Shown here: positions 6,979 through 59,035 of the stretch, piece by piece
How the letters are laid out: the number at the start of each line of letters is the position of its first letter
Numbering within the stretch: position 1 is the first letter of the stretch
Assembly (NCBI GenBank): GCA_963681505.1
Contig: OY811974.1
Span: 2,992,511-3,056,510 of the forward strand
Reading direction: 5' to 3'
DNA from: Eunapius fragilis
Lineage: Eukaryota > Porifera > Demospongiae > Spongillida > Spongillidae
Length of the DNA stretch: 64,000 nucleotides
Notes under the pieces: model-generated
Told to the model about the DNA's origin: nothing
The model's database searches: none
What the model saw: the letters and a program-made list of their open reading frames with translations, nothing else
Translations under genes and position numbers: made by a program

Positions 6979-9900
6979 TTAAAGTTTGGGTTTCTGCTTC
7001 TTTGCACTTGAGGTACGTGTGGTTCTTGTTGTTGTTGTTCTTGATTGCATTGCAAACATAGTTGGGCCTGTTGTAGTCACTGCAAACACAGCTGGATTCC
7101 CTATCATGGGGGCAACATTGAATGCTGTGGGGCTGATTATTCCAGGTGATTGGCCTGGTGATGACAGCTTGCGGGGTGGCGAAGTAGTGCGAGTAGGCGT
7201 TTCGTCTTCTTCTTCCATCAGTTCTGGAGATTGGGCTCGCATAATATTTTGATGAGCAACAATTTTATGTGGGTGCATAGCGTTTTGCAAGGGGGATGGC
7301 GCAGGAATATCATCATCACTGGTAACGTCTTCATCTTCGTTGTCATCTAGCCTAATAAACACTTGAAATGGGCTTCCAGGTATATGGGTGCCAGACCATC
7401 GGATTGCAATGATGTAGTCACCTGATGCAGTGGGGTTGTATGATGCTTTCAGCAGCCGTGGGTTCGACTCATCAGGAACACATTCAATTCTAAAGGCACC
7501 CTTGACTCCGTGGACACGTATGGACAGCGTGCCAATGCCAGCTCCCTTCGTACTTATGGTAAACTCTGCTGGCTCACCGCTGAGTATCCCACTTTCCAGT
7601 CCTCGGCCGTGTGCCTTCACATTGCTGGCAATTGGACCACGATGAACTTTTATCTGGAACGGGCTTTTAGGAATGGGCACACCACTCCAGAGTGCATTAA
7701 TGAAATAGGTGCCATGATCAGGGGCATCGAACTTCAGGGAGTGGACATCATCAGTCTGGGCAACAAAGAGCTTTGGTTCTGATGCATTGCTTGGACCCTC
7801 AGCATTCACCTCTAGTTCTCCATATCCAGCCTCGCTGGTATCGATAAACAGATCAAGAGGATTCCCTGCGATGTGAACGGAGTTGGGGTTAAGTGCAGGC
7901 CCGTATGCTCGACATTTGGAGGCATTTGGTGCAAGGACAACCTCAAGTACAAATGGACTTCCATTTATGTGTTTATCACCCAGGGTGATATTCACAGAAT
8001 AGGTCCCAAGTGCATTCGGCGTATACGATGCTGTATAGGATCCATTCTTGTCATCGACAAGGGTAACGGGAATTGTCTGGGCTGGAGAAGTGATTGTTGC
8101 TGTCAATCGCTTCTTTTGGATCAGGTTTGGTTCTGGGGAACTGATCTGGAATGTAGTTTTCTGCCCACGAAACGCAAGTGTCAGCCCTTTTCCGCTAGCA
8201 GAGCATGAATCAGCATCTAAAGAGGGATCTACTGCAACAGAGAACGGGCTCCCGTTAATGTGCTGGTCCCCAAGCATTATCTCAATACAATGGGAACCAA
8301 CCTCCCATGGCACAAAGGAAACTATGTAGTTACCCTTTCCATCAGGAGTAATTTCTGGAGTGTACATGGCACTTTTTCCACGGGGAACAATCTTGGGTTC
8401 AAGGCTTCCCGCACCATTGGTGTGCACAGTGAATTTAATTTCGTCCCCGGCGCGGCCTTTGCCATTCACCACAGCGTGCCCACTGGCCTGTACTTTGTTT
8501 GCATCGCATACCTTGACGTTGAAAGGCATCTGAGGTATGCTAGATCCTCCCCAGCAGATTGAAACATTTTCATCGCCAATAGCCTTGGCAAAAAGCTCAA
8601 TGTCATGTGTTTCACCTTTATCCTCGATTTTTTTTACAGTGATGCAGGTAGAGGATCCTTCAAGCAATTCACTAAACACTACTGATAGCTTTCCTGGACC
8701 TGCCCCATTGGTGCTGACAGTTATTGTGTATGTTTTACCTACTTGCATCGCATGAGGAAGGCGCCCTAGCACTTGGCACTTCTGTGGGTCGATGCTCTTA
8801 AAAGGACAAGGGCTCCCCGCAATGTTGTGGCCTGCATAACTGGCAAAGACCTCAAACTCTCCTGGCTCCGCTGGCAAGAAAGTACCTTCAAGAACACTGT
8901 CTGAATTTGCAGTTAGAACAAGGGGTGTGTCTACTGTTGGACCGTTAACGCTCACCTTTATTTCACGGGCCAAACCTGAAGCTCCCTTTGTAACGTCCAC
9001 TTCAACTTTGACCGGTTTTTGAACAAATGCTATCCCACCCTTCAGATTCACAATACGAACCGAAAACTCTTCTGGAGAAGCCTTTAGCTTGGCATTCCTA
9101 AACCCACTGAGATAAGTGGCAACAATGATCTCATCTACTTTGGGGTCAGCAAATTCTGCTGTAGTGATTGGACACTGCACCCCTATGCGCTGGTCAATGA
9201 GAGCAAACAACCTCTCGAGGTTCTCTATAGCCTTGGCGGGGTCCATTGTCTTCCAATCAGGACACATTCCCTGAAAGCATGCATCAGCGAGTGCGCCGAG
9301 ATTTATCCCCGTGTTCCAATCAGTCGTGAGGTTCTTGATGTTGTTCGCAGGGATAGTCTTCTGTATCCACTGAAGCACCTGGTCATTCCATGGGCGAAAG
9401 AAGTATGAGAGATACGTCATGATACTCAGTTCATCGACATCAATACTGTTGAGATCTTCAGGAGTGAGGAGTTTTGGAATACCAAAGTGGAGCTCAGCTA
9501 AATCCATGCCAAGCCTACAGTTTCCCAAACCATCTGATGAACTTAGGGAATAATGGTTTGGACATATACCAGGCTTTAACCTGTCGGCTAATCCACAGAG
9601 CGCTTTCCCGTCATTCCAGTTGGTGGTAAAGTTTTCGATTCTATAAAGTCCTATCAATACATTAATCCATTGCAGCATAGCCTTTTTGGTGGAGAGACCT
9701 CTTCCGGAACTCTTTATCTGGTATTTCAAAATCAGGGACCATATCAAACCTAGAATGAGTTTTAAATTGCCCTCATATATATCTTCAGGTCCTGCGATGA
9801 AAAGGGATCTCAGATGAAAATATTTAATAAAAATCAGTCTTGTACAAAACTATTGTTTATCACCATAGAAAATTCATATTTTGAAAATTCATATCCATAA

Positions 9901-10387
9901 TGTCATGCATGCTTGTGCGTCCATGGTTACGGTACGCGCGCTTGATACGACGACTGACGAGCCATTTATACATAACTTTAAAGCCGACGTTTACATAGCA
10001 GAAGTATAAGCGGCACCTTACATACGAATGACTGCCCGTTCTAAAATCACAACTGTATATATATATAATATTTAATATCACATAATGTGGGCAATATGAA
10101 CCCGACTTACCGATGTTTACAAGCTTAATTCCTTGGTCAGCTACGAAACGCAATGCTGTTCCGATATTTTCTACGCACTGGGCCTTGATTTTAGGGGTTT
10201 TGTTGTACTTTCCAACGGTCTTTGGAGCCGCTAACTTCTCGAGCAGTTCGATCAAAAGAAGGCCGTCTTTAAAATCGGTTTCGAGGTTGCGTATTTGGTT
10301 CTTTGCAACCTTCAGGTGGCCTCTCAGGCGATCGTTGCACCAGTTCGTAAATGTCCTTTGCTGAGTCTGCTTCCACTTCTCACTCAT
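6979..10387 (-). CDS. Filamin-like actin-binding protein with three CH domains and six Ig-like filamin repeats
   Basis: Two coding exons are joined on the minus strand: 10387-10111 (277 nt) and 9791-6979. The intron has GTAAGT at the donor and CGCAG at the acceptor, and the split codon restores the expected CH1 sequence NIG-PEDIYEGNLKLILGLIW. The product is 1029 residues. CH1 is about residues 10-118, CH2 125-223 and CH3 226-324. Six immunoglobulin-like filamin repeats follow at about 334-427, 428-522, 522-614, 621-711, 713-809 and 812-907, several ending in the signature G(S)PF (INGSPF, IPKSPF, IPGSPF). The tail (908-1029) is acidic, then Ser/Pro/Thr-rich with a basic end (SSAKKQKPKL). Filamins cross-link actin. 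Classical ones have two CH domains and many more repeats; three CH domains is the arrangement known from the insect filamin-type protein Jitterbug, so orthology to that family is likely but inferred. Start: first Met of the CH1 exon, after which the CH1 fold begins at once. There are no stops or frameshifts. The second exon of 2.8 kb is unusually long for an intron-rich genome. Confidence 0.92.
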
Positions 10388-19287: not shown

Positions 19288-22200
19288 ATGGCGAGTATGC
19301 AGAGGACTGACAGTCGTCTTCGTTACTCACTGCTCCTGACCGTACTACTTTACTCCGTCATACCTACCTGTAAGTGGTACCTTTATACTGATGTTTTCAT
19401 GGTTAGATTAATTCGGTATTTTAGTGTATAGGGTTTAACTAATATTCACTACGCTATAATGTAAGACTCTTTAATGCAAACTACGCGGTATATAGTGACG
19501 GCTGTCCTGGACCGGTTGAGGGTTGTGGTTGGGGGGCATACGCGTAGGACTCCCTCCTCCCCTTTATATTATGAACGTATATGTAGGACACGCCCTCTGA
19601 GCAGGCCCCCAATCCTGTTTACGTTGAGAAATAAGTTCTATCCACCCCCCACCCCCCACACATAGAGATTATATAATGATGCCAGGCATATAGTAGTAGT
19701 CTTCTGCGATTCTGTTTGCTTGCAATTATTTAACCGGGGAAAGGCAGTCGAAAACGTCGCTTTCATTTGCCATCTTTGTCTGGTACACCAGGTACAGTAG
19801 TATGACCTATGCTTTTACATTATGTGCATGTATATATGTATGTGTATGTGTGTGTTAGTGTGTGCGTGTGTGATAGAACAGGTGCATAGTATAGTCAGCC
19901 TTGAACTTTAACTCCTATGGTAACCATATGTCTGCTATGTACTTACACTTATGTGACTCGTAACGACACAAATATCGCTGCTTTTACGCCTACATACATT
20001 ATTATAATATACTTATACATATCAGAGCAAATCAATTCTGCATCAAATTCAAAGTTGAGCAACGGTGGTGAACCCAAATGTTAAAAACGCAGATGACACA
20101 TGTAGACATACACATATTCTGTCATTCATATGATTGGTTATTTCTTCCTTCTCTAGTGACACAAACAACTCAAGGTTAGCTCTAAATTATTAAAGAGTTC
20201 CTTTTTACACTACAGATAACTCCACCCTAGCCACCAACATAAATACAACAACGCCTACAGTTTGTTATTATATAATTATAACGTTACAGCGAATACACAA
20301 AGAATATATAAATGATACATAAAACTAGATACACTAAATAATAACACAAAACTTGTACATAAAACTCCTCATCCTCACTGTTCACTTTCATTATCCCCAA
20401 TTCGGAAGCTGCATTACCCTGTTGGATGGCCACAATTATAATTATGTACAGTCATAAAAAGTGGTGCACAATGCTCTGTCCCACACTTACCACAAATAGG
20501 TGCACATGTAAACAAAAGTGCAGAACATATATAGGCGCACACGTATTCTGCTGTAAATCAATCATTCATTTACATGCTAAATTCTCTTTCATCAGTGACG
20601 ACCCAATCACCAGGTTAGTTTTTATTCAGTAGTTGCTTTGCATATTTATTGCATCCACCACTGCCACCTATGAAGACACATCCACACCAACACCACCAAC
20701 AGGTTTGTGAGTGCAAACATTTTATATTTGTGAGTGCAGACGTTTATAAATACATGTGTTTTTTTTTAGTACAACTTTAGATTGTTGCAAAAAATTGGTC
20801 ATCTGACAGGCATAAATAAAATATAATCATGTGCCTGAATACTGATATATAATTTATACCAGTATTATAAATATACACTTAAAAGGTAGTGTACTTACCA
20901 ACATGAGCCACACAGGTAAAAAAATGCAGAACATACATAGGGCGCACCATATTCTGCTGTCAATCTATCATTTGTTTATATGCTCAATTCTACCTTCCCC
21001 AGTAACCCAATCACCATCACCAACTATAGGTTAGTTATAATTAAAGAGTTATTTTGTATATTTATTGCGCCATATATTGCAACACCACAGCCACCACTGA
21101 AGGCCCATCCTCATCAACAGCATGTGAGAACAAACTAGTTTTTACTTATTCATGCATGTTTCACAGTATAGCTTTAGATTAGCACAACAAAGATCTCCGT
21201 CATTAATAAAATAGAAATTAATATATGCAGGTACTTCCTGAATATTGCAACACCACAGGTGGCGGAGAGTGTTTTGTCCTTAATTTATATTAAAACTCAA
21301 ATGCAGAAAACACATAGTGCACACATATTCTCTCATTTCTTTATCTTCTTTCTTTACCAGTGATCCAATCACCACCATCTATAGGTTAGTTCTAATTAGA
21401 GAGTTGCTTTGTATATTTATTGCATCACAAATTGCAACACCACAGCCACCACTGAAGGCACATTCACATCAACAGCATGTGAGAACAAACATTGGTTAAA
21501 TAGTTTTTACTGATGCATGTTTCACAGTATAACGTAAGGTTAGTACAAAAAAGATCACAGTCATTAATAAAATAGAAATTAATGTATGCAGGTTATTTCC
21601 TGAATATTGATGATAAGTACATATAGAGGTGGTGGGGAGAGTGCTTTGTCCTTTATAAGTAAACACATATGCAGAAACACATAGGTGCACACAAATTCTC
21701 TCATTCGTTTATCTTTTTCCTTTAACCAGTGATCCAATCACCATCACCATCTCTAGGTTAGCTATTATTAAGGAGTTGCTGTGTACGTTTATTGCATTAT
21801 ATATAACAAAACCACTGCCACCAATGAAGACACATCCTCCACATCATCCTCACATATAGGTTTGTGAGTGCAAACATTTTATATTTGCAAGTGATTTTCA
21901 AGTAAAAATTTTGGTTATTGCAAAACATTGCTCACATGACAGTAATAAATAAGATATAATATTTTGCCTGAATACTGATACATAATCCATACCAGTATTA
22001 TAAATTTAAAAGGTGGTGCACGGTGCTTTGACAAACATGAGCCATAAAAAGGTACACATGCAAAAAAATGCAGAACACACACATAGGCACACTGTCAATC
22101 TATTATTCATTTATATGTTCAATTCTACCTTCCCCAGTTACCCAATCGTCCTCACCTTCAGGTTAGTTCTTATAAAAGAGTTGCTTTGTATCTTTATTGC

Positions 22201-24219
22201 ACCATATATTGCAACATCACAACCACCAACATAGACACATTTCCATCAACAACATTGACAGGTCCGTGAAACTTTACATTGGTTAGTTAGTTTCTTAGTT
22301 GTGATTTTTTATTATAACATTGAGTATTGCAATAAAGTGCTCATAAGAACAGAATATTATGCCTGACAATTTATAGTTCACATTTATGATGTCTGAAATT
22401 TAATAAGTACACAAAATGTTTAATAATAGAGTACTGCAGGATTAGGCTTATAACCACTTGCACAGCTGTATGTATTGATAGTGGATAAATGGTTTATGCT
22501 GATTCATGTATAGATACAGCAAAATCATTCCTGCCTACAACAGTAGTGGTGAGTTCTAGTGCAACTTTAAGATGCCTTATCCACATTTGCAAAACCGTAG
22601 TGCTATACAACCATAATTAGCTGCGCAGAAACCCCATGTATGTATTTCAGATGCTGGTGCATTGATAATATCATTCACCTATATATTTACTTGCTAGCAG
22701 CCAGTTCAGCTTCAAACAACTCAGCATCAGGTTTGTGAACAGCAGCTAGCTCACTATGAAGTAGTAAAAAAGCCCCATTCAATATTTTTATGGCTTTAAT
22801 ATCTTAAAACAGCTATTGTATTATAGTGCAGTTGTCTGGTACTAGCCAGTGTGACATATTATAAAGTGTGATGCTGGCCTTTCCTGTTATCCAGCTGAAG
22901 CAGTGCCATCAAGTCAGTCTTGGTCAAGCAAAAGCTCAGGCTGGTTATGCAATATAGTAAGTTTTTTATTTAAATGGTTGGTTTATTACAGTTGAAGTGG
23001 CCAGAACCGTATCAACACCAGGTATTTAAGATACTTATTGGTTGACTCCTGTTCAAGTATTTTCCCCAACAGTCAGCCCAATGGCCTCAGTGCCAGATGC
23101 TACAAACACTGTTGGATCAGGTTTGTAGATGTAGGCTAACAGTTGAGTGCTGTTCTGATGGACAAAGAATGCTGGTCCACAGCAGTGATATCATTAGTGC
23201 CAACAACCATTGCACAAAGCCTTATTACAGGAATTGGTGAGAATATAGGCATAATTAATAATTAGTGGGTAGTATTCATAGTGCTTTATGTCCACATTTT
23301 GGTTACACAGGAACATCAGGTATGCAATGTCATCTGCACATGATGGATCTTAGCATTTGTTGTGAACATATTCAGGTGTGTCATTGGCTACAAAATCTAC
23401 ATCAGGTCAGTGAACACCAACACACCAGACGGTTGTGAAGTGAGTCTTTCATTTTTTACAGCTGGAGCTCCCACAACTATACTCAATGTGAACATCAGAG
23501 AAACAGCATCGATTGGAATAATGAAGATATCGGTTACTTCAAGTACGATTCAGTGCATATCACCTTTTGGAATAGTAGCAATTGCATTGATCATGTGCTA
23601 ATTTCCATGCTCTTCTTGCTAGGCTTTCCAACTGTTACACCAACAGGTAGGTGCATCTGTCTACAGTGAATGTGAAATATGTATGAAAATATCTGATTGA
23701 AATCTAAGATCTGATTATGACTTAAACTACACATACTTTTTAAAATTTTCTATTCAACGTGTACCATAAAGTAATATCATACATTGTCCAGCGGGGTTTA
23801 ATATTTTCCACTTCATGCACATGTGAATATTGAATGGCAGTTTAGTTTGGAATACCATGTATAGTGTTAATTTTCCATCTGCGCTTGGCAGTGATCCCAG
23901 CAACAGGTTTGCTTCCTGGGAAAGTGACGGCCATTGTTGTTGGCATCATTGGGGTAGTGATCCTGGCACTTATCATTATCGCAATATGCAGATGGTAGGT
24001 GTTATTAGACAAATTTGACATCAGAGGTAAATATTTGTGTATTTTATTTTTGCTAGCTTTCACTCCAAGCTGAAGAAGCAGACTGACATGCGTGATGACA
24101 ATAGTGCAGATGTAAATAACACTTTTGTCATCAGCAATCCATCACTGGAAGACCTTGACAACACATCCGTGCATAGCATCAAGCTCACATATGTGGATAC
24201 AAAGAGAGTAGAATTATAA
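19288..24219 (+). CDS. Type I membrane protein with Ser/Thr/Pro-rich stalk built from tandem micro-exons
   Basis: Exon 1 (19288-19369) encodes a signal peptide, MASMQRTDSRLRYSLLLTVL plus LYSVIPT, and ends in phase 1 at GTAAGT. At least 19 tiny exons follow, each with AG/GT borders, length a multiple of three and phase 1-1: 20157-20174, 20596-20613, 20676-20702, 21003-21029, 21091-21123, 21361-21384, 21446-21478, 21730-21756, 21830-21859, 22138-22161, 22235-22261, 22701-22730, 22895-22912, 22992-23021, 23073-23120, 23186-23236, 23311-23319, 23376-23405 and 23623-23646, plus a weaker 23462-23542. They encode strings such as VTQSPSPTI, VIQSPPSIG, VIQSPSPSL, ATTEGPSSSTA and DTSTPTPPT, the composition of an O-glycosylated stalk. 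Exon 23892-23994 gives one transmembrane helix (AIVVGIIGVVILALIIIAIC). Exon 24057-24219 gives a 54-residue cytoplasmic tail ending KRVEL and containing LTYVD, with a possible phosphotyrosine and a possible class II PDZ end. The product is about 310 residues if all exons are used. I recognise no family. No globular ectodomain was found. Function is unknown; adhesion, sensing or a mucin-like coat are possibilities. Confidence 0.72.
20157..22261 (+). repeat. Tandem array of ~370-400 bp units carrying paired micro-exons
   Basis: Six consecutive units each contain a type A micro-exon (V-x-Q-S-P class, after TTTACCAG or CCCCAG) and, about 60-90 bp later, a type B micro-exon (A-T-T-E-G or D-T-S class), followed by conserved intron text such as GTGAGAACAAAC and AATAAAATAGAAATTAAT. 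Units start near 20157, 20596, 21003, 21361, 21730 and 22138. The type B exon of the first unit, near 20236-20266, has lost its splice donor register by one base. The array shows that the stalk grew by unequal duplication of exon plus intron. Confidence 0.75.
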
Positions 24220-24788
24220 AAACAGTTCAATTCTTAAAGACTGCGTGAGTGCACAACATTATAGTAATGCACAAAAAAAATTGCTGTTACAGCACATCTC
24301 AATACCAACAGTGTGGTAGTATTGTTGATGCTTGCATGCTTTTACTGATCATGGATCATTTGTAGGAGATATTTTGCTACCAATTTTAAACAGTTGATTG
24401 TCAGGGTGTGTGTGGTGTGGTGTGGTGCAGTGTATGCTTTCTCACAAGTGGCATTACACTTTATGGTAATAACCTTATTATGGTGAAGTAATGGTGATCA
24501 CCATAATATTTCTGTAAACATCAGCCCACAACTGCATCTGATGCTAATGTTGGGATTGTTGAAGCTAAGTGACCAATAAGCCGGCAAAATCCTCCATAAA
24601 AGCGTGTAAGAGTTAATGCTTATTGTGGATGACCCAACTGCAAACAGTTTCCCCATTAGCTGCATAAAGTGGTTATTCCTCTCCCATCATGCCAGTGTGG
24701 CATCATACTCATAATCTGGATGTTGCAACACTGGACACTGGTATCTAGTACATTATAATTATTATATAATTATAAATGATATATGTAA
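24220..24788. other. 3' flank of the micro-exon gene
   Basis: Contains the likely 3' UTR. GTGTGGTGTGGTG-type repeats occur near 24405-24430. No other gene is visible. Confidence 0.4.
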
Positions 24789-25003
24789 GGTACTTTTTCA
24801 AAATTTCCAGAACAAGCAAAAGAAAAGTAACGCTCGTATTGAAATGTATGGCTAATTATAAATTCAGTGCCTAATAACTTTGTGATGGATAGTCCGATTT
24901 AGGATGCGTAAGGACCAGAAGCTCATGGGTGTTCAAGGAAAATCAAAAAAATTGAAAACTTGAAAAACTAGCCAGAAGGGTGATTCTGCTGGACACTGTC
25001 CCA
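24789..25003 (-). mobile_element. TGGGACAGT-family MITE, truncated at one end
   Basis: This matches the reverse complement of the complete copy at 2050-2288 from GGTACTTTTTC onwards to the terminal ACTGTCCCA at 25003, with scattered substitutions and a small deletion. The opposite terminus (about 28 bp) is missing. It abuts, over a 20-bp TA run, the first giant palindrome, whose end begins with the same TGGGACAGT. Confidence 0.75.
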
Positions 25004-25936
25004 TATATATATATATATATATATGGGACAGTTCACGCGAAAATTGCCTATCGCGTATATATATATAAAGTTATAAAAATGACTCACTTTGAAATCGCTG
25101 CATCTCCCGAACCGTAAACGCTATTGCCTTCCTATTTTCAACCCTTCATACTACATCATTTCCCTCTGGTAAAATCGATTATGGGCTCTTGCATTAGCTT
25201 CGTGCCAGTGTTACAACGTCCGATACCCCTTGGGGTTCTAACCCGCCATATCTTTCGGCAGGAAAATTCAATTCACTCCTAGTTTGGTTTGTACGTAGAG
25301 GGATCCTGTACCTATTGATTTGTTCTGTTCGTTAATTTTTTCTTTATCCGTTGCGGGGATACAACTGTGCAAAGTAATTGCATATTTCCCGGTCGTTTCG
25401 CGCCATTTATCTATCGAGGACATGAATATATGCAATTACTTCCTGTTCAATAACTATGCCTCCGCCCATCTATACAATATACAACAAGTACGCGGCGTTT
25501 TCGCTTCTTGCAAACGTCTGGTTCTGTTCCCCTTCTTGGCTTCTTCAACATAGTGAGCAGAAGCTAAAGATTCGTAATACGTGGGTTCAGCTGCCATCAG
25601 CCTGCGCAACACGGTACGTACTCTGTAGCGCATGCACGTAGAAATCGAGCGTGTTGGCTCGGTCAAACTGCTTCATTTATGCGTGCACAACGCTGCAGAG
25701 CATGAAAGTGCACGGTGCCTAGGGCTAGCTTAATCTGAAACGCACCCTTCCTTTTTGACTTCTGCACACGCACAGATATATATATATATATGAAACATGC
25801 ACCCCCTTGTAGCTACATGTATTTACCAACATGTAGTACTCTCATTGGCCTAATAAAACCTCTTTTATCTTCATTGGTGAACCAATTATATTTGGTTCTA
25901 CAAAATAATATCCATATACAAAATAAAATCCATAAG

Positions 25937-28620: not shown

Positions 28621-28822
28621 ATTAAGTGCACATGGCAACACCAGACATATGTAACCAGATGTTTAAAAAATAGGTTCAAGTTCTGTTCATCATCTCTCGA
28701 TTGAACTCCCTAACAGCGGGGCTACCCAGGCCACAAAGGTCCAAACTTGTACTTTTAGTGTTTGTTTATGTAGATGTATAAAACTTGGTTTAATGTTTAG
28801 GTGAATGGCAAGGTGCTTTATC

Positions 28823-29499
28823 TGTGTTGAGGTGTCTCTGTGTATACCCTGTCACTACATGCATGTACACTGTGTTGAGGTGTCTGTATACCCTGTCACT
28901 ATGTACACTGTGTTGAGGTGTCTCTGTGTATACCCTGTCACTACGTACACTGTGTTGAGGTGTATATCCTGTCACTACATGCATGTACACTGTGTTAAGG
29001 TGTCTCTGTGTATACCCTGTCACTACATGCATGTACACTGTGTTGAGGTGTCTGTATACCCTGTCACTATGTACACTGTGTTGAGGTGTCTCTGTGTATA
29101 CCCTGTCACTACATACACTGTGTTGAGGTGTATACCCTGTCACTACATGGATGTACACTGTGTATACCCTGTCACTATGAACACTGTGTTGAGGTGTCTC
29201 TGTGTATACCCTGTCACTATGTACACTGTGTTCAGGTGTCTCTGTGTATACCTTGTCACTATGTACACTGTGTTCAGGTGTCTCTGTGTACATAGTGACA
29301 GGGTATACAGACACCTGAACACAGTGTACATAGTGACAGGGTATACACAGAGACACCTGAACACAGTGTACATAGTGACAGGGTATACACAGAGACACCT
29401 CAACACAGCATACTTAGTGACAGGGTATACACAGAGACACCTCAACACAGTGTACATGCATGCAGTGACAGGGTATACACAGAGACACCTCAACACAGA
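28823..29499. repeat. Inverted minisatellite forming the palindrome centre
   Basis: Tandem units built from GTGTTGAGGTGTCTCTGTGT, ATACCCTGTCACTA and (CATGCAT)GTACACT run left to right to about 29287, then the complementary units (CACCTCAACACAG, TAGTGACAGGGTATAC) run to 29499. Unit length varies from about 30 to 50 bp because some units lack the CTGTGT or CATGCATG segments. The left side has about twice as many units as the right. Open frames across it are repeats of the same peptide and are not genes. Confidence 0.9.
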
Positions 29500-38280: not shown

Positions 38281-40280
38281 TCCCTCTACCTCCTTCTCCT
38301 CCTCTTCCTATCTTCCTTCATCCACCCATCCACCTCCTCCTCTCCTCCTCTCCTCCTCCTCTCCTCCCGTCCACCTCCCGTCCCCTCCCCCTCCTCCTCC
38401 TATCTTCATCCACCCATCCTCCCCCCTCCTCCTCCTCTCCGTCTCCCCTCCTCCTCCCTCCCTCCACCTCCTCTCCTCCTCCCTCCTCCACCTCTCCTCC
38501 TCCATCCCCCTCCCCTCCACCTCCCTCCTCCTCCGTCCCTCCTTCCCTCCTCCTTCCCTCCTCCTCCCTCCTCCTCCCTCCTCCTCCCTCCTCCTCCCCT
38601 CCACCTCCCCTCCTCTCCTCCTCCTCTCCTCCTCCCCTCCTCCTCCCCTCCCCTACTTCTACCTTCCACTGGTTGCACCCTCCCCTCCTCCTTTCATTCT
38701 TTCTGTTGCATCCACCCCCTACTATCTCCTTCCTCTCCTCTACCTCCTCCTCTTCTCCCTCCTCTTCCTATCTTTCTTCATCCACCCATCCTCCTCCTCC
38801 CCTCCCATCCTCCTCCTCTTACTCCCTCTCATTTTCCCTCCTACCTTCCTTCCTATTACACCTACCCCTACCCCTCCTCCTTTCTTTTGATTGCATCCAC
38901 ACCTCCCCCTCCTCCTCCTCCTCCCCTCCCTTTACTCCCTCTCATTTTCCCTCCTACCTTCCTTCCTATTACACCTACCCCTACCCTCCTCCTTTCTTTT
39001 GATTGCATCCACACCTCCCCCTCTTCCTCCTCATCCTCCTACTTCTACCTTCCTACCTGTTGCATCCAGGAGGAGGAGGGGAGGAGGAGGAGGAGGAGGG
39101 GAGGAGGGGAGGAGGGGAGATTGGGGAGGAGGATGGGTGGATGAAGGAGATAGGAGGAGGAGGGGGAGGAGAGGAGGAGGATGGGTGGATGAAGGAAGAT
39201 AGGAGGAGGAGGGGGAGGAGGGGAGGATGCCAATGGGTAGGAAGGTAGAAGTAGGAGGATGAGGAGGAGAAGGGGAGGTGTGGATGCAGTCAAAAGAAAG
39301 GAGGAGGGGGAGGGGTAGGTGTAATAGGAAGGAAGGTAGGAGGGAAAATGAGAGGGAGTAAGAGGAGGAGGAGGGGAGGAGGAGGAGGGGAGGGGAGGAG
39401 GAGGGGAGGAGGATGGGTCAATGAAGGAGGAGAGGAGGAGGAGGTAGGGGATGGGAGGAGGAGGGGGAGGAGAGGAGGAGGAGAGGAGGAGGAGGATGGG
39501 TGATGAAGGAAGATAGGAAGAGGAGGGAGAGGAGGAACAGGAGGTAGAGGAGGGGGAGGAGAAGGTGGGGTGGATGCAACGGGAAGAATGGAAGGAGGAG
39601 GAGGATGGGTGGATGAAGGAAGATAGGAGGAGGAGGTGGGAGAGGAGGAAAAGGAGGTAGAGGAGGGGAAGAGAAGGTGGGGGTGGATGCAACGGGTAGA
39701 ATGGAAGGAGGAGGAGGGGGAGGATGCAACGGGTAGGGAGGTAGAAGTAGGATGAGAAGGAGGAGGGGGAGGTGTGGATGCAATCAAAAGAAAGGAGGGG
39801 GAGGGGTAGGTGTAATAGGAAGGAAGGTAGGAGGGAAAATGAGAGGGAGTAAGAGGAGGAGATAGGGAGGGGAGGAGAAGGGAGGAGGAGGAGGGAAGGA
39901 GGAGGATGGGTGGATGAAGGAAGATAGGAAGAGGAGGAGGGAGGGGAGGAGAAGGTGGTAGAGGAGGGGGAGGAGAAGGTGGGGGTGGATGCAACGGGAA
40001 TAATGAAAGGAGGAGGAGGGGAGGATGCAACAGGTAGGAAGGTAGAAGTAGGAGGATGAGGAGGAGGGGGAGGTGCGAATGCAATCAAAAGAAAGGAGGA
40101 GGGGTGTTAGGTGTAATAGGAAGGAAGGTAGGAGGGAAAATGAGAGGGAGTAAGAGGAGGAGATAGGGAGGGGAGGAGAAGGGAGGAGGAGGAGAGGAAG
40201 AGGAGGGAGAAGAAGGATGGGTGGATGAAGGAAGATAGGAAGAGGTGGAGGGAGAGGAGGAGAAGGAGGAGGAGGTAAGA
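38281..40280. repeat. Polypyrimidine block switching to polypurine block, 2 kb
   Basis: From 38281 to about 39065 the plus strand is CT-rich ((CCT)n with TTCATCCACCCATC and TTTTGATTGCATCCACAC motifs). From about 39069 to 40280 it is the complementary GA-rich text. Higher-order units are visible: GGATGCAATCAAAAGAAAGG occurs near 39282, 39776 and 40077 on the right, and its complement near 38878 and 38993 on the left. The whole is therefore an inverted minisatellite. Long Ser/Pro open frames across it are compositional artefacts. Confidence 0.9.
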
Positions 40281-53638: not shown

Positions 53639-54763
53639 TAAGGCTTGAAACCTGTTAGTTTAGAAAAAACCGGTTGTAAGAGGTTAATTATTAAAAATTT
53701 AAAAACCGGTCGGTTAAGGTGATTATTTAAACAATAACCGGTCGGTTGCGGTTGTTCTCTTTAATTTCCGGGTTTAACAGTTAATTAATTATCAATTATT
53801 AAGGCAAAATCGATTTCTCGATGGGACCAAATGCTAAGCCAGCACAACCTCGGGCTTTGCCACATGGCAAAAAAGATGGTCCGCGGCGTACCCCTAAGCA
53901 TGTTGCGGATCGCGCCGCGTACAAAGACATCTATTTTGTAGAGGATATAATTGCCGAGCGAATGGCAAAAAAGCGCAAAGAATGGCTCGTGCGATGGAAA
54001 GGGTTTAGCCATGAGGATGATACGTGGGAGCCGCTTGAACATTTAAGCGGTTGTGAGCAGTACATAGCTCGTTTTGAGAAAGAGCGTGACCGAAAACAAG
54101 CAGAAGATGTTGATGCACGGGGACAGAAAAGGAAGAGACGCGATGATGACGTCGACGAGGAGGCAGTTACATCACAAGAACTTGCATCAATATTGACGCC
54201 TGGCTTATCCGGAAAACAGTCATCTCTAGTATGGCACGCATTTGTCAATGCAGAAGACAAGCAGTTTGCAATTTGCATGTTGAAGATGCATGGTGAACGG
54301 CACTCAGTGTGGGCTGTTTTGGTAAAGTGTGGTGTAACAGTTTGCTGTTAACTCATTATCTTCGCAAGTGGGTTGGAACTGACTATCACCCTAATGCTGA
54401 GTCCACGCACACTGTCTGAACGAGACGCGGTGCGCGGACTCACCATTAGAGGTGTTGCATTGACGTCACGCGCGTCTTGATTACTATAAATAATAGTATG
54501 TTGCTATAATAATATAAAAAAGTTGCTATAAATATCACCAGCCTTCTCTCCGTTATTCGCTCTCGTCCGCTGAATGTTTTCTCGTGCCCGGCATTATTGC
54601 TAGATGTAATAAACGCTACTTGCAAATCCACTGTCAACCGGTCAGTTGTGGTTGCTTAAAATTTTAACAACCGGTTGAAGCGGTTATTTTGACCAGTTGA
54701 GGCGGTACTTTGATTCTCGCAATCGGTTAACTGGTGCTCTGGCACAACCGGTTTCAAGCCTTA
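53639..54763. mobile_element. hAT-type element 2 carrying a chromodomain ORF
   Basis: Ends TAAGGCTTGAAACCTGTT and AACCGGTTTCAAGCCTTA are flanked by a perfect 8-bp duplication CTTCTGAA (53631-53638 and 54764-54771). Subterminal regions are full of AACCGGT/ACCGGTCGGTT repeats on both sides (53668-53760 and 54636-54760), likely transposase binding sites. The 1125-bp interior holds one plus-strand frame with a chromodomain (53821-54351). An 8-bp duplication indicates the hAT superfamily. Confidence 0.85.
53821..54351 (+). CDS. Chromodomain protein inside a hAT-type element
   Basis: A single-exon frame of 176 codons. A basic N-terminus is followed by a chromodomain at about residues 35-88: IYFVEDIIAERM, WLVRWKGFSHEDDTWEPLEH. 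The methyl-lysine cage residues expected at YxVE, W and F (WKGF) are all present (Y38, W59, F62). Chromodomains read methylated histone tails. A bipartite basic patch (GQKRKRRDD, about 115-125) may be a nuclear signal. After residue 140, SSLVWHAFVNAEDKQFAIC resembles the start of a BED zinc finger (VW..F ... FAxC), but the paired Cys/His residues are not seen, and THYLRKW lies in another frame just after the stop. My reading is the N-terminus of a chromodomain-BED hAT transposase whose catalytic part was deleted. A captured host chromodomain gene is the alternative. The frame is intact, so it may still be expressed. Confidence 0.75.
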   Translation: MGPNAKPAQPRALPHGKKDGPRRTPKHVADRAAYKDIYFVEDIIAERMAKKRKEWLVRWKGFSHEDDTWEPLEHLSGCEQYIARFEKERDRKQAEDVDARGQKRKRRDDDVDEEAVTSQELASILTPGLSGKQSSLVWHAFVNAEDKQFAICMLKMHGERHSVWAVLVKCGVTVCC

Positions 54764-57719: not shown

Positions 57720-59035
57720 TTATGCAATCTTGTCAGGTAGTATAATACGATCCCCGTACCAGCCAGGGGGTTGTCTGATTCTGGTTGATCGTCTGAGTGC
57801 AGGAGGCTCGGGGCCAGGTTCATCATGAGCTTCCACATCTGCATGTTCTGGTGGATGTTCCTCTGGGGCCTGTATCTCATGACCATCATCGAGGTCTCCT
57901 TCCACTTTGGGAGCTGGTGGTAGTAGGTTCTCCTGCTGTTGTGGAAGATACACAACTATATCTTCCATCTTGTCACCAGTGGTAGTTTTGTGAGGTACTG
58001 CAGTCCTGCCAGTAGGAACCACATCTGGTACATTTTGTATTGGAACACAGACTGGCTGTTCCATTATATTCTCATTGGAGACCCAAGGTTTCAGCATGTT
58101 GAAGTGCACAACCAAACGCTTCTTTGTTCTCACACAGTTCATAATGCGGTAGGTGGCTGGTCCTAGAGCGACACCACTTTGTATGGCCCTTGCCATGGCC
58201 TGTGTAGATTTTGTGAGCGACTTCTGGGTACCTGTGGACAGTGCAGCAACACCAGGTCACCTACTTGAAAAGGTTGCCCCCTGACTGATTTGTCATAATT
58301 GGATTTCTGGTGGTTCTGCTGCCTTCTGGTGTGTTGTTGCACCAACTGGTAGGCATGTTGCAGGCAAGCTTTCAGCTTGGTCTTGTAGTCAGCTCCAGCT
58401 GTCTCCACAGTAGCTGGAAGAGCAAACATCACATCCTCTGGAAGACACACTTCACGCCCGTACATCAACTCAAATGGCGAGGCACCAGTGGTGTCATGGA
58501 CACTTGTCCTATATGCCAAGAGTATGCATGAAAGGAAGTTGCTGATCCCAGCTCTTCTCATTCTCCCCCACAGCAATGCTCAGCATGTTCAGCAATGTCC
58601 CGTTAAAGCGCTCAACCACCCCGTCGGACTGGGGATGGTATGGGGTGGTTCTTGTCTTCCTTATCCCAGCATCAAGCACAGTTCCTTGATGAGGTTGCTC
58701 TCAAAGTTTCTCCCTTGATCTGTGTGAATGGTGTCAGGAACTCACATTTGACAAATGAACTCATTAACCAGGATACACGCCACTGTCTGTGCTTCCATGT
58801 TCTTCATGGGAAACGCCTCCTTCCACCTGGTGAAGTAGTCTCCTACCATAAAAATATAAGGGTTTCCCCTTTCAGTGACTGGTAGTGGTCCCAGAATGTC
58901 CATGGCAATTCTTTCCAAGGGCCTTGATACTGAGTCCTCTAACTGCAGCGGAGCCCTTAGTGTAGGTGGTGATTTTCTTGAACTACAGTTGGCACAGCTA
59001 GCACACCATCTCTCCACGGATCTTTTCTCTGGCTA
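57720..59035 (-). pseudogene. Integrase and C-terminal region of the Ty3/Gypsy remnant
   Basis: From high to low coordinates: a zinc-binding part with ERWCASCANCSSRK near 59015, the rve core (RIAMDILGPLPVTERGN with the first Asp, then TDQGRNFES with the second Asp, then SDGVVERFNGTL with the Glu), AYRTSVHDTTGASPFELMYG, NYDKSVRGQPFQVGDLVLLH, and a C-terminus with RRSTRIRQPPGWYGDRI. The core is split over frames at about 58745, 58680 and 58580, and again near 58190. No chromodomain is present at its end. An integrase would insert the cDNA copy; this one cannot be made as one protein. Confidence 0.85.

Follow-up and report, generated by a model that had tools for sequence, protein, structure and literature searches.

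The 64,000-nucleotide window examined here (positions 2,992,511 to 3,056,510 of contig OY811974.1 of the sponge Eunapius fragilis) contains, at 19288-24219 on the plus strand, a predicted gene for a membrane protein with a stalk assembled from very short exons. The layout comprises a signal-peptide-like exon, 20 short exons, a transmembrane exon and a tail exon. When joined, the 23 exons form a single open frame of 319 amino acids (aa), and all internal borders carry AG and GT. The 20 internal exons are 9-81 nucleotides (nt) long, all multiples of three, and begin and end in phase 1 (phase 1-1). They supply 612 of the 960 nt of coding sequence (64%), and the 17 exons of at most 36 nt supply 429 (45%). 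Exons and introns differ in composition (C 31% versus 16%, T 21% versus 33%). The explanation we favour, with a probability of about 0.72, is that the gene encodes a fast-evolving, type I membrane-bound, mucin-like protein whose stalk has grown by duplication of phase 1-1 micro-exons.

Counting AG..GT segments that are stop-free and a multiple of three in length was dropped as exon evidence, as the observed number was at chance level: 186 segments versus 186.9 ± 20.3 in 200 shuffles, and 41 non-overlapping segments versus 40.9. Because this literal criterion was uninformative, the best exon chain was scored by donor and acceptor strength, with phase left free and at two exon costs, lower and higher. 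At the lower cost the best chain scored 74.3, versus 10.5 ± 5.7 (maximum 27.4) in 300 shuffles, none of which reached the target. For 73 segments elsewhere in the window the score was 12.4 ± 6.9 (maximum 33.1). Of the 14 exons in the chain, ten were phase 1-1; no shuffle contained more than five such exons, and no other segment more than three. At the higher cost the chain scored 46.6 (0/300 shuffles), and 11 of the 13 exons were phase 1-1.

Six of the chain exons are copies of one another, and the test was therefore rerun on the non-repeated part (22290-23891) alone. At the lower cost this part scored 35.0 versus 4.5 ± 3.4 (0/500 shuffles), with 8 of 9 exons in phase 1-1 (shuffle mean 0.55, maximum 4). 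At the higher cost the score was 19.9 versus 1.2 ± 1.8 (0/500 shuffles), and all seven exons were phase 1-1. The case for a genuine phase pattern rests mainly on these statistics. Together with the result for the whole chain they bear out the claim, made in a preliminary description of this DNA, that the stalk is made of phase 1-1 micro-exons. A tandem repeat that merely happens to carry AG and GT, with no gene, would agree with the chance-level result of the literal criterion. It is nevertheless very improbable in view of the free-phase chain statistics for the whole and the non-repeated part, the composition contrast between exons and introns, and the transmembrane and tail frame.

The first coding exon (19288-19369, 82 nt, MASMQRTDSRLRYSLLLTVLLYSVIPT) encodes a hydrophobic stretch, YSLLLTVLLYSVIP, preceded by charged residues, as read from the translation. 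It ends in phase 1 with the base T, at a gtaagt donor in the 96th percentile. Donor percentiles are ranks among the donor sites of the window, acceptor percentiles ranks among all its AGs. The transmembrane exon (23892-23994, KVTAIVVGIIGVVILALIIIAICR) is entered in phase 1, and its hydropathy rises to 3.46 over 19 residues. The cytoplasmic tail exon (24057-24219), identified by its reading frame, ends with a TAA stop after the C-terminus ...TKRVEL. Of the 214 ectodomain residues 110 are Ser, Thr or Pro and none is cysteine; there is one N-glycosylation sequon. The strong transmembrane segment and this composition agree with the earlier description of a membrane protein with a Ser/Thr/Pro stalk. 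From this anatomy and from the history of the array the product is probably a small mucin-like cell-surface protein; we infer its expression, signal peptide cleavage and glycosylation.

The same scoring was applied to a genome control of 20 stretches of 10 kb at fixed places, in which 186 of 200 4.5-kb windows were usable, 14 being dropped for N. Start and end phases were left free in the control windows, to their advantage over the target. A single control window out of 186 reached the score of the stalk gene at the lower cost. Short same-phase symmetric exons numbered at most 8 in a control, versus 10 in the target, at the lower cost, and at most 5, versus 11, at the higher cost. The matching window is probably a locus on contig C4, the contig that also holds the window (L027, C4:2500001-2510000). 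Its minus strand carries 22 phase 1-1 exons (123 nt in 20 of them, 102 nt in two), whose translations we take, from their motif, to be EGF-like. Some copies in this exon array are nearly identical. The donor gttagt occurs at 21 of the 22 exons, which supports the gttagt donor of the A exons of the stalk gene, described below. As the L027 array is equally symmetric, single-phase arrays are not unique to the stalk gene; what is unusual in the stalk gene is the tiny exon size together with the absence of a folded module.

In animal genes for extracellular proteins the signal-peptide and transmembrane exons are usually bordered in phase 1, with 1-1 modules between them. The stalk gene may be an ordinary ectodomain of this kind, used mostly constitutively, in which a lineage-specific stalk happens to have small exons. 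We give this an even chance: the usual layout speaks for it, with L027 as an example in the same genome, but 20 exons of 9-81 nt without a folded module are unusual in the sample, and so is the number of short same-phase exons at the stricter cost.

Two other control loci were noted. L031 was considered as a second gene with stalk micro-exons and rejected: its short exons lie inside or just past a longer frame, and the donor of its 15-nt exon is weak. The plus strand of L029 (C5:1500001-1510000) has recurring 99-nt exons in phase 0-0, whose translations are presumably ankyrin-like, judging from their motif.

Eleven of the 20 internal exons belong to a two-exon unit that occurs in six tandem copies (20142-22267), recognized from direct repeats, alignment and intron identities. 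Each unit consists of an exon A, an intron of 41-73 nt and an exon B; copy 1 is partly decayed. Successive units are separated by 237-336 nt, at a unit-to-unit spacing of about 355-433 nt. The lengths of all six A exons are divisible by three: A1 (20157-20174, 18 nt), A2 (20596-20613, 18 nt), A3 (21003-21029, 27 nt, encoding VTQSPSPTI), A4 (21361-21384, 24 nt), A5 (21730-21756, 27 nt) and A6 (22138-22161, 24 nt). All are phase 1-1 and appear in the free-phase chain, and their splice sites rank high (acceptors in the 98th-100th and donors in the 96th-100th percentile; 100th and 98th, respectively, for A1). B exons 2-6, with donors in the 95th-99th percentile, are also phase 1-1: B2 (20676-20702, 27 nt), B3 (21091-21123, 33 nt, encoding ATTEGPSSSTA), B4 (21446-21478, 33 nt), B5 (21830-21859, 30 nt) and B6 (22235-22261, 27 nt). 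B3 and B4 end with the base T, and each has a second in-frame acceptor 12 nt downstream (at 21103 and 21458).

The introns between units retain a record of how the array arose. Identity is 86% between I23 and I56, 88% between I34 and I45, and 72-80% in the eight remaining pairs; these values indicate local copying of one unit and, across the array, the copying of a block or of a converted stretch. The A/B units have retained their frame and splice sites but hardly their residues. In the explanation we favour, a single-copy gene would encode, after a signal peptide, a disordered stalk rich in Ser, Thr and Pro and devoid of cysteine, followed by a single transmembrane helix and a tail of some 55 residues. 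With all ectodomain junctions in phase 1, whole exons could be gained or lost without a frameshift. Selection would hold splice sites and frame far more than residues, a regime that would allow the stalk to grow through unequal exchange. The two-exon unit would have been multiplied to six tandem copies, one step being a block copy, and stalk length would evolve as phase 1-1 micro-exons are gained and lost.

The nine internal exons downstream of the array are all phase 1-1. Those at 22701-22730 (30 nt) and 22992-23021 (30 nt) were placed by splice-site ranks and the analysis of the non-repeated part, and those at 23376-23405 (30 nt), 23462-23542 (81 nt) and 23623-23646 (24 nt) by splice-site ranks and the free-phase chain, which also contains the 9-nt exon at 23311-23319. 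The 18-nt exon at 22895-22912 has alternative donors at 22956 or 22976 that would change the phase, the 48-nt exon at 23073-23120 has an alternative, asymmetric acceptor at 23077, and the 54-nt exon at 23183-23236 has a weak acceptor (73rd percentile) and is in none of the free-phase chains.

Several results weigh against the explanation we favour. The splice matrices were generic ones and not trained on this genome. The unconstrained chain omits all B exons, and between 22514 and 23120 it can take asymmetric exons with little loss, a route almost as good as the symmetric one. Acceptors of B exons 2-6 reach only the 44th-79th percentile (B2 60th, B5, the weakest, 44th). The first B copy, B1 (20216-20259), has a strong acceptor; its donor options would make it 44 nt, which is not a multiple of three, 67 nt or, using a poor site (-5.3), 48 nt long. 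Lacking a good in-frame donor, B1 is decayed, skipped or alternatively ended. The preliminary description had every small exon up to the transmembrane exon bordered by AG/GT, a multiple of three in length and phase 1-1; this stands for the 20 exons of 9-81 nt and fails for B1, where the symmetry is broken. In ten pairs among units 2-6 (unit 1 left out, pairs not independent) B exons differ at 63 of 286 sites (22%), the same as introns (21-23%), and A exons at 35 of 210 (17%). By this comparison of exon and intron divergence in units 2-6, a purifying signal is absent for B and only slight for A. Neither AATAAA nor ATTAAA occurs in 24201-25200. A protein search with the 319-aa product, in which residues 230-319 were scored, gave 133 candidates, none with E ≤ 1, and one with a 65-aa transmembrane-tail piece gave a single candidate, the exon of the window itself; such searches depend on shared exact words and could miss distant orthologues.

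Most of the points concerning B would be explained if the gene were real only in part, that is, if the signal-peptide, A and downstream exons were genuine and the B exons, perhaps with the one at 23183, were chance or dying intron sequence. The weak B acceptors, their intron-like divergence, the broken B1 and the unconstrained chain without any B exon all suit this possibility. It remains a doubtful one, since all five other B copies retain the frame, an AG at one alignment column and a donor in the 95th-99th percentile.

The compatibility of the exons was assessed by joining the signal-peptide, internal and transmembrane exons pairwise in the forward direction. A sense codon resulted in 228 of 231 joins. 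The other three create TGA, and all three lead onto the 9-nt exon at 23311, which starts with GA. They come from the signal-peptide exon and from the two B exons that end in T (21091-21123 and 21446-21478). The stop that had been predicted for T-ending exons placed before 23311-23319 is thus found, with the signal-peptide exon among the donors. Openness of the joins follows from equal phase and is not evidence of skipping.

Combinatorial splicing of the stalk exons is possible. As a generator of variants, in which many exon choices would give one gene a large repertoire of stalk lengths and glycosylation patterns, in the manner reported for schistosome micro-exon genes and polymorphic mucins, the locus has in its favour the 228 open joins, the combination of weak acceptors with good donors in B exons, two of which offer the acceptor 12 nt further on, and the local and block duplication in the array, from which copy number may differ between individuals. 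This is rather unlikely, because frame symmetry alone is no proof of skipping, the EGF-like array of L027 being as symmetric, and the strong sites of the A and most downstream exons fit constitutive use. Moreover, a search of the introns for conserved docking pairs of the Dscam type revealed only 10 inverted pairs, all short (14-21 nt), and no repeated selector pattern. The exons with strong sites (A and most of those downstream) are probably constitutive, and the best candidates for cassette exons are the B exons, given their weak acceptors.

The stalk gene is single-copy in the genome. The A+B unit was matched nowhere else in 218.9 Mb (24 contigs), a search that recovered its own copies at 77-88% identity. 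The transmembrane-tail part matched only itself, besides four weak matches (E 0.09 or worse). Weak matches to the tail on C19 were taken as chance, their source being a segment repeated within a giant open frame, and weak matches on C14 and C9 (E 0.16 and 0.93) as composition. The C19 frame (L004-L007, C19:335487-345845) is intronless and 6810 aa long, with a segment recurring every ~3.4 kb; by eye, from its motif, we take it to be cadherin-like. Pfam gave no domain above its cut-off for the product, only EphA2_TM at E 0.054, and Rfam nothing at the gathering score.

Tropoelastin, CD44 and CD45 (in their variable exons) and CD99 are familiar examples of extracellular regions with short cassette exons in phase 1-1; compared with the sponge gene, these have fewer or longer exons and different peptides. 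The statement in the preliminary description that no family with such a layout had been described does not hold. The same or a very similar layout is found in the schistosome micro-exon genes (MEGs; PMC5825161, PMC4671649, PMC4350168), in the polymorphic mucins of Schistosoma mansoni (SmPoMuc; PMC2576457) and in the aphid bicycle genes (PMC9168663). The sponge gene shares its layout with these and belongs to none of them. No sponge micro-exon gene was among the literature matches listed, which comprised open-licence papers only.

MEGs encode secreted or membrane-anchored proteins, and ~80% of their coding sequence lies in symmetric micro-exons of 6-36 bp (PMC5825161). The micro-exons are flanked by two longer exons, the 5′ one bearing the signal peptide, and the products have T/S/P-rich disordered regions, O-glycosylation being predicted for membrane-anchored forms (PMC4671649). 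The sponge gene resembles them, above all the membrane-anchored MEG-14, 29 and 32, in its symmetric small-exon core, T/S/P-rich disordered product and membrane anchor, and in being a fast-evolving orphan; its 82-nt 5′ exon may likewise encode a signal peptide. Symmetry is found in 20 of its 21 exon-like segments, compared with 26 of 33 micro-exons in MEGs 26-32 (PMC4671649). It differs in that exons of at most 36 nt hold 45% of its coding sequence as against ~75-80% in MEGs, and in its host: MEGs are called apparently restricted to platyhelminths (PMC4350168), and for the sponge gene two protein searches found no homologue of the transmembrane-tail part and Pfam no family above its cut-off. 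MEG variants were demonstrated with RNA and protein; those of the sponge gene are putative.

SmPoMuc has tandem units of ~1 kb, each with a 27-bp exon encoding a S/T/P-containing repeat (PMC2576457). The likeness lies in tandem units with a tiny S/T/P exon (18-33 nt in the six sponge units; PMC2576457, PMC4015677), and the growth by unequal exchange proposed there fits the sponge array too. SmPoMuc differs in being a family of genes for secreted proteins, in contrast to the single-copy sponge gene with its transmembrane exon, and its units have >94% intron identity and microsatellites, whereas the sponge units have two exons each and introns 72-88% identical. Bicycle genes consist of numerous small exons, of which almost all are in phase 2; single-phase genes with many exons are described as rare in most genomes (PMC9168663). 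Bicycle genes and megacycle share with the sponge gene many small single-phase internal exons and a fast-evolving protein, and bicycle genes too were recognized by gene structure rather than sequence (PMC9168663). Their phase 2 exons, CYC motifs and secretion set them apart from the phase 1 exons, cysteine-free ectodomain and membrane anchor found here.

Single-phase micro-exon genes of the MEG and bicycle type are described from flatworm parasites and aphids and mostly encode host-facing secretions. A free-living sponge with this design would show an independent origin through duplication of small phase 1-1 exons, with no parasitism involved, in a gene whose introns still record how it grew unit by unit. 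A large, individual-specific stalk set, in which unit number varies between individuals by unequal exchange and the weak-acceptor B exons are mixed by splicing, is improbable. If it existed, the surface coat would be varied at both the DNA and the RNA level, perhaps to serve self/non-self or microbe contact, and would be independent of what is seen in flatworms and aphids. The case also advises caution, in that such genes escape annotation and protein search and that frame symmetry alone proves neither exons nor alternative splicing.

Elsewhere in the window, a filamin gene with a calponin-homology domain and filamin repeats lies on the minus strand (6979-9747 and 9860-10387). Its larger piece is intronless and encodes 922 aa. 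The best match to 6979-9747 with a named source is Em0010g739a (eukprot; 73% identical), which from its prefix we take to be an Ephydatia muelleri protein; an unnamed protein is closer (80%). Named matches include proteins of the sponges Oopsacas minuta and Halisarca dujardinii. A minisatellite with 42-bp units (28822-29498) continues in reverse-complement orientation from 29286 and looks like a large inverted repeat. At 38289-40275 a long CCT-rich stretch is followed by an AGG-rich one, with 113-bp repeats on either side, in a mirror-like purine/pyrimidine switch. A frame on the minus strand (57720-58196) matches the Integrase p58 C-terminal domain (E 1.5e-7), and a chromo-domain frame lies on the plus strand (53821-54351); the two are probably retroelement pieces or captured domains.

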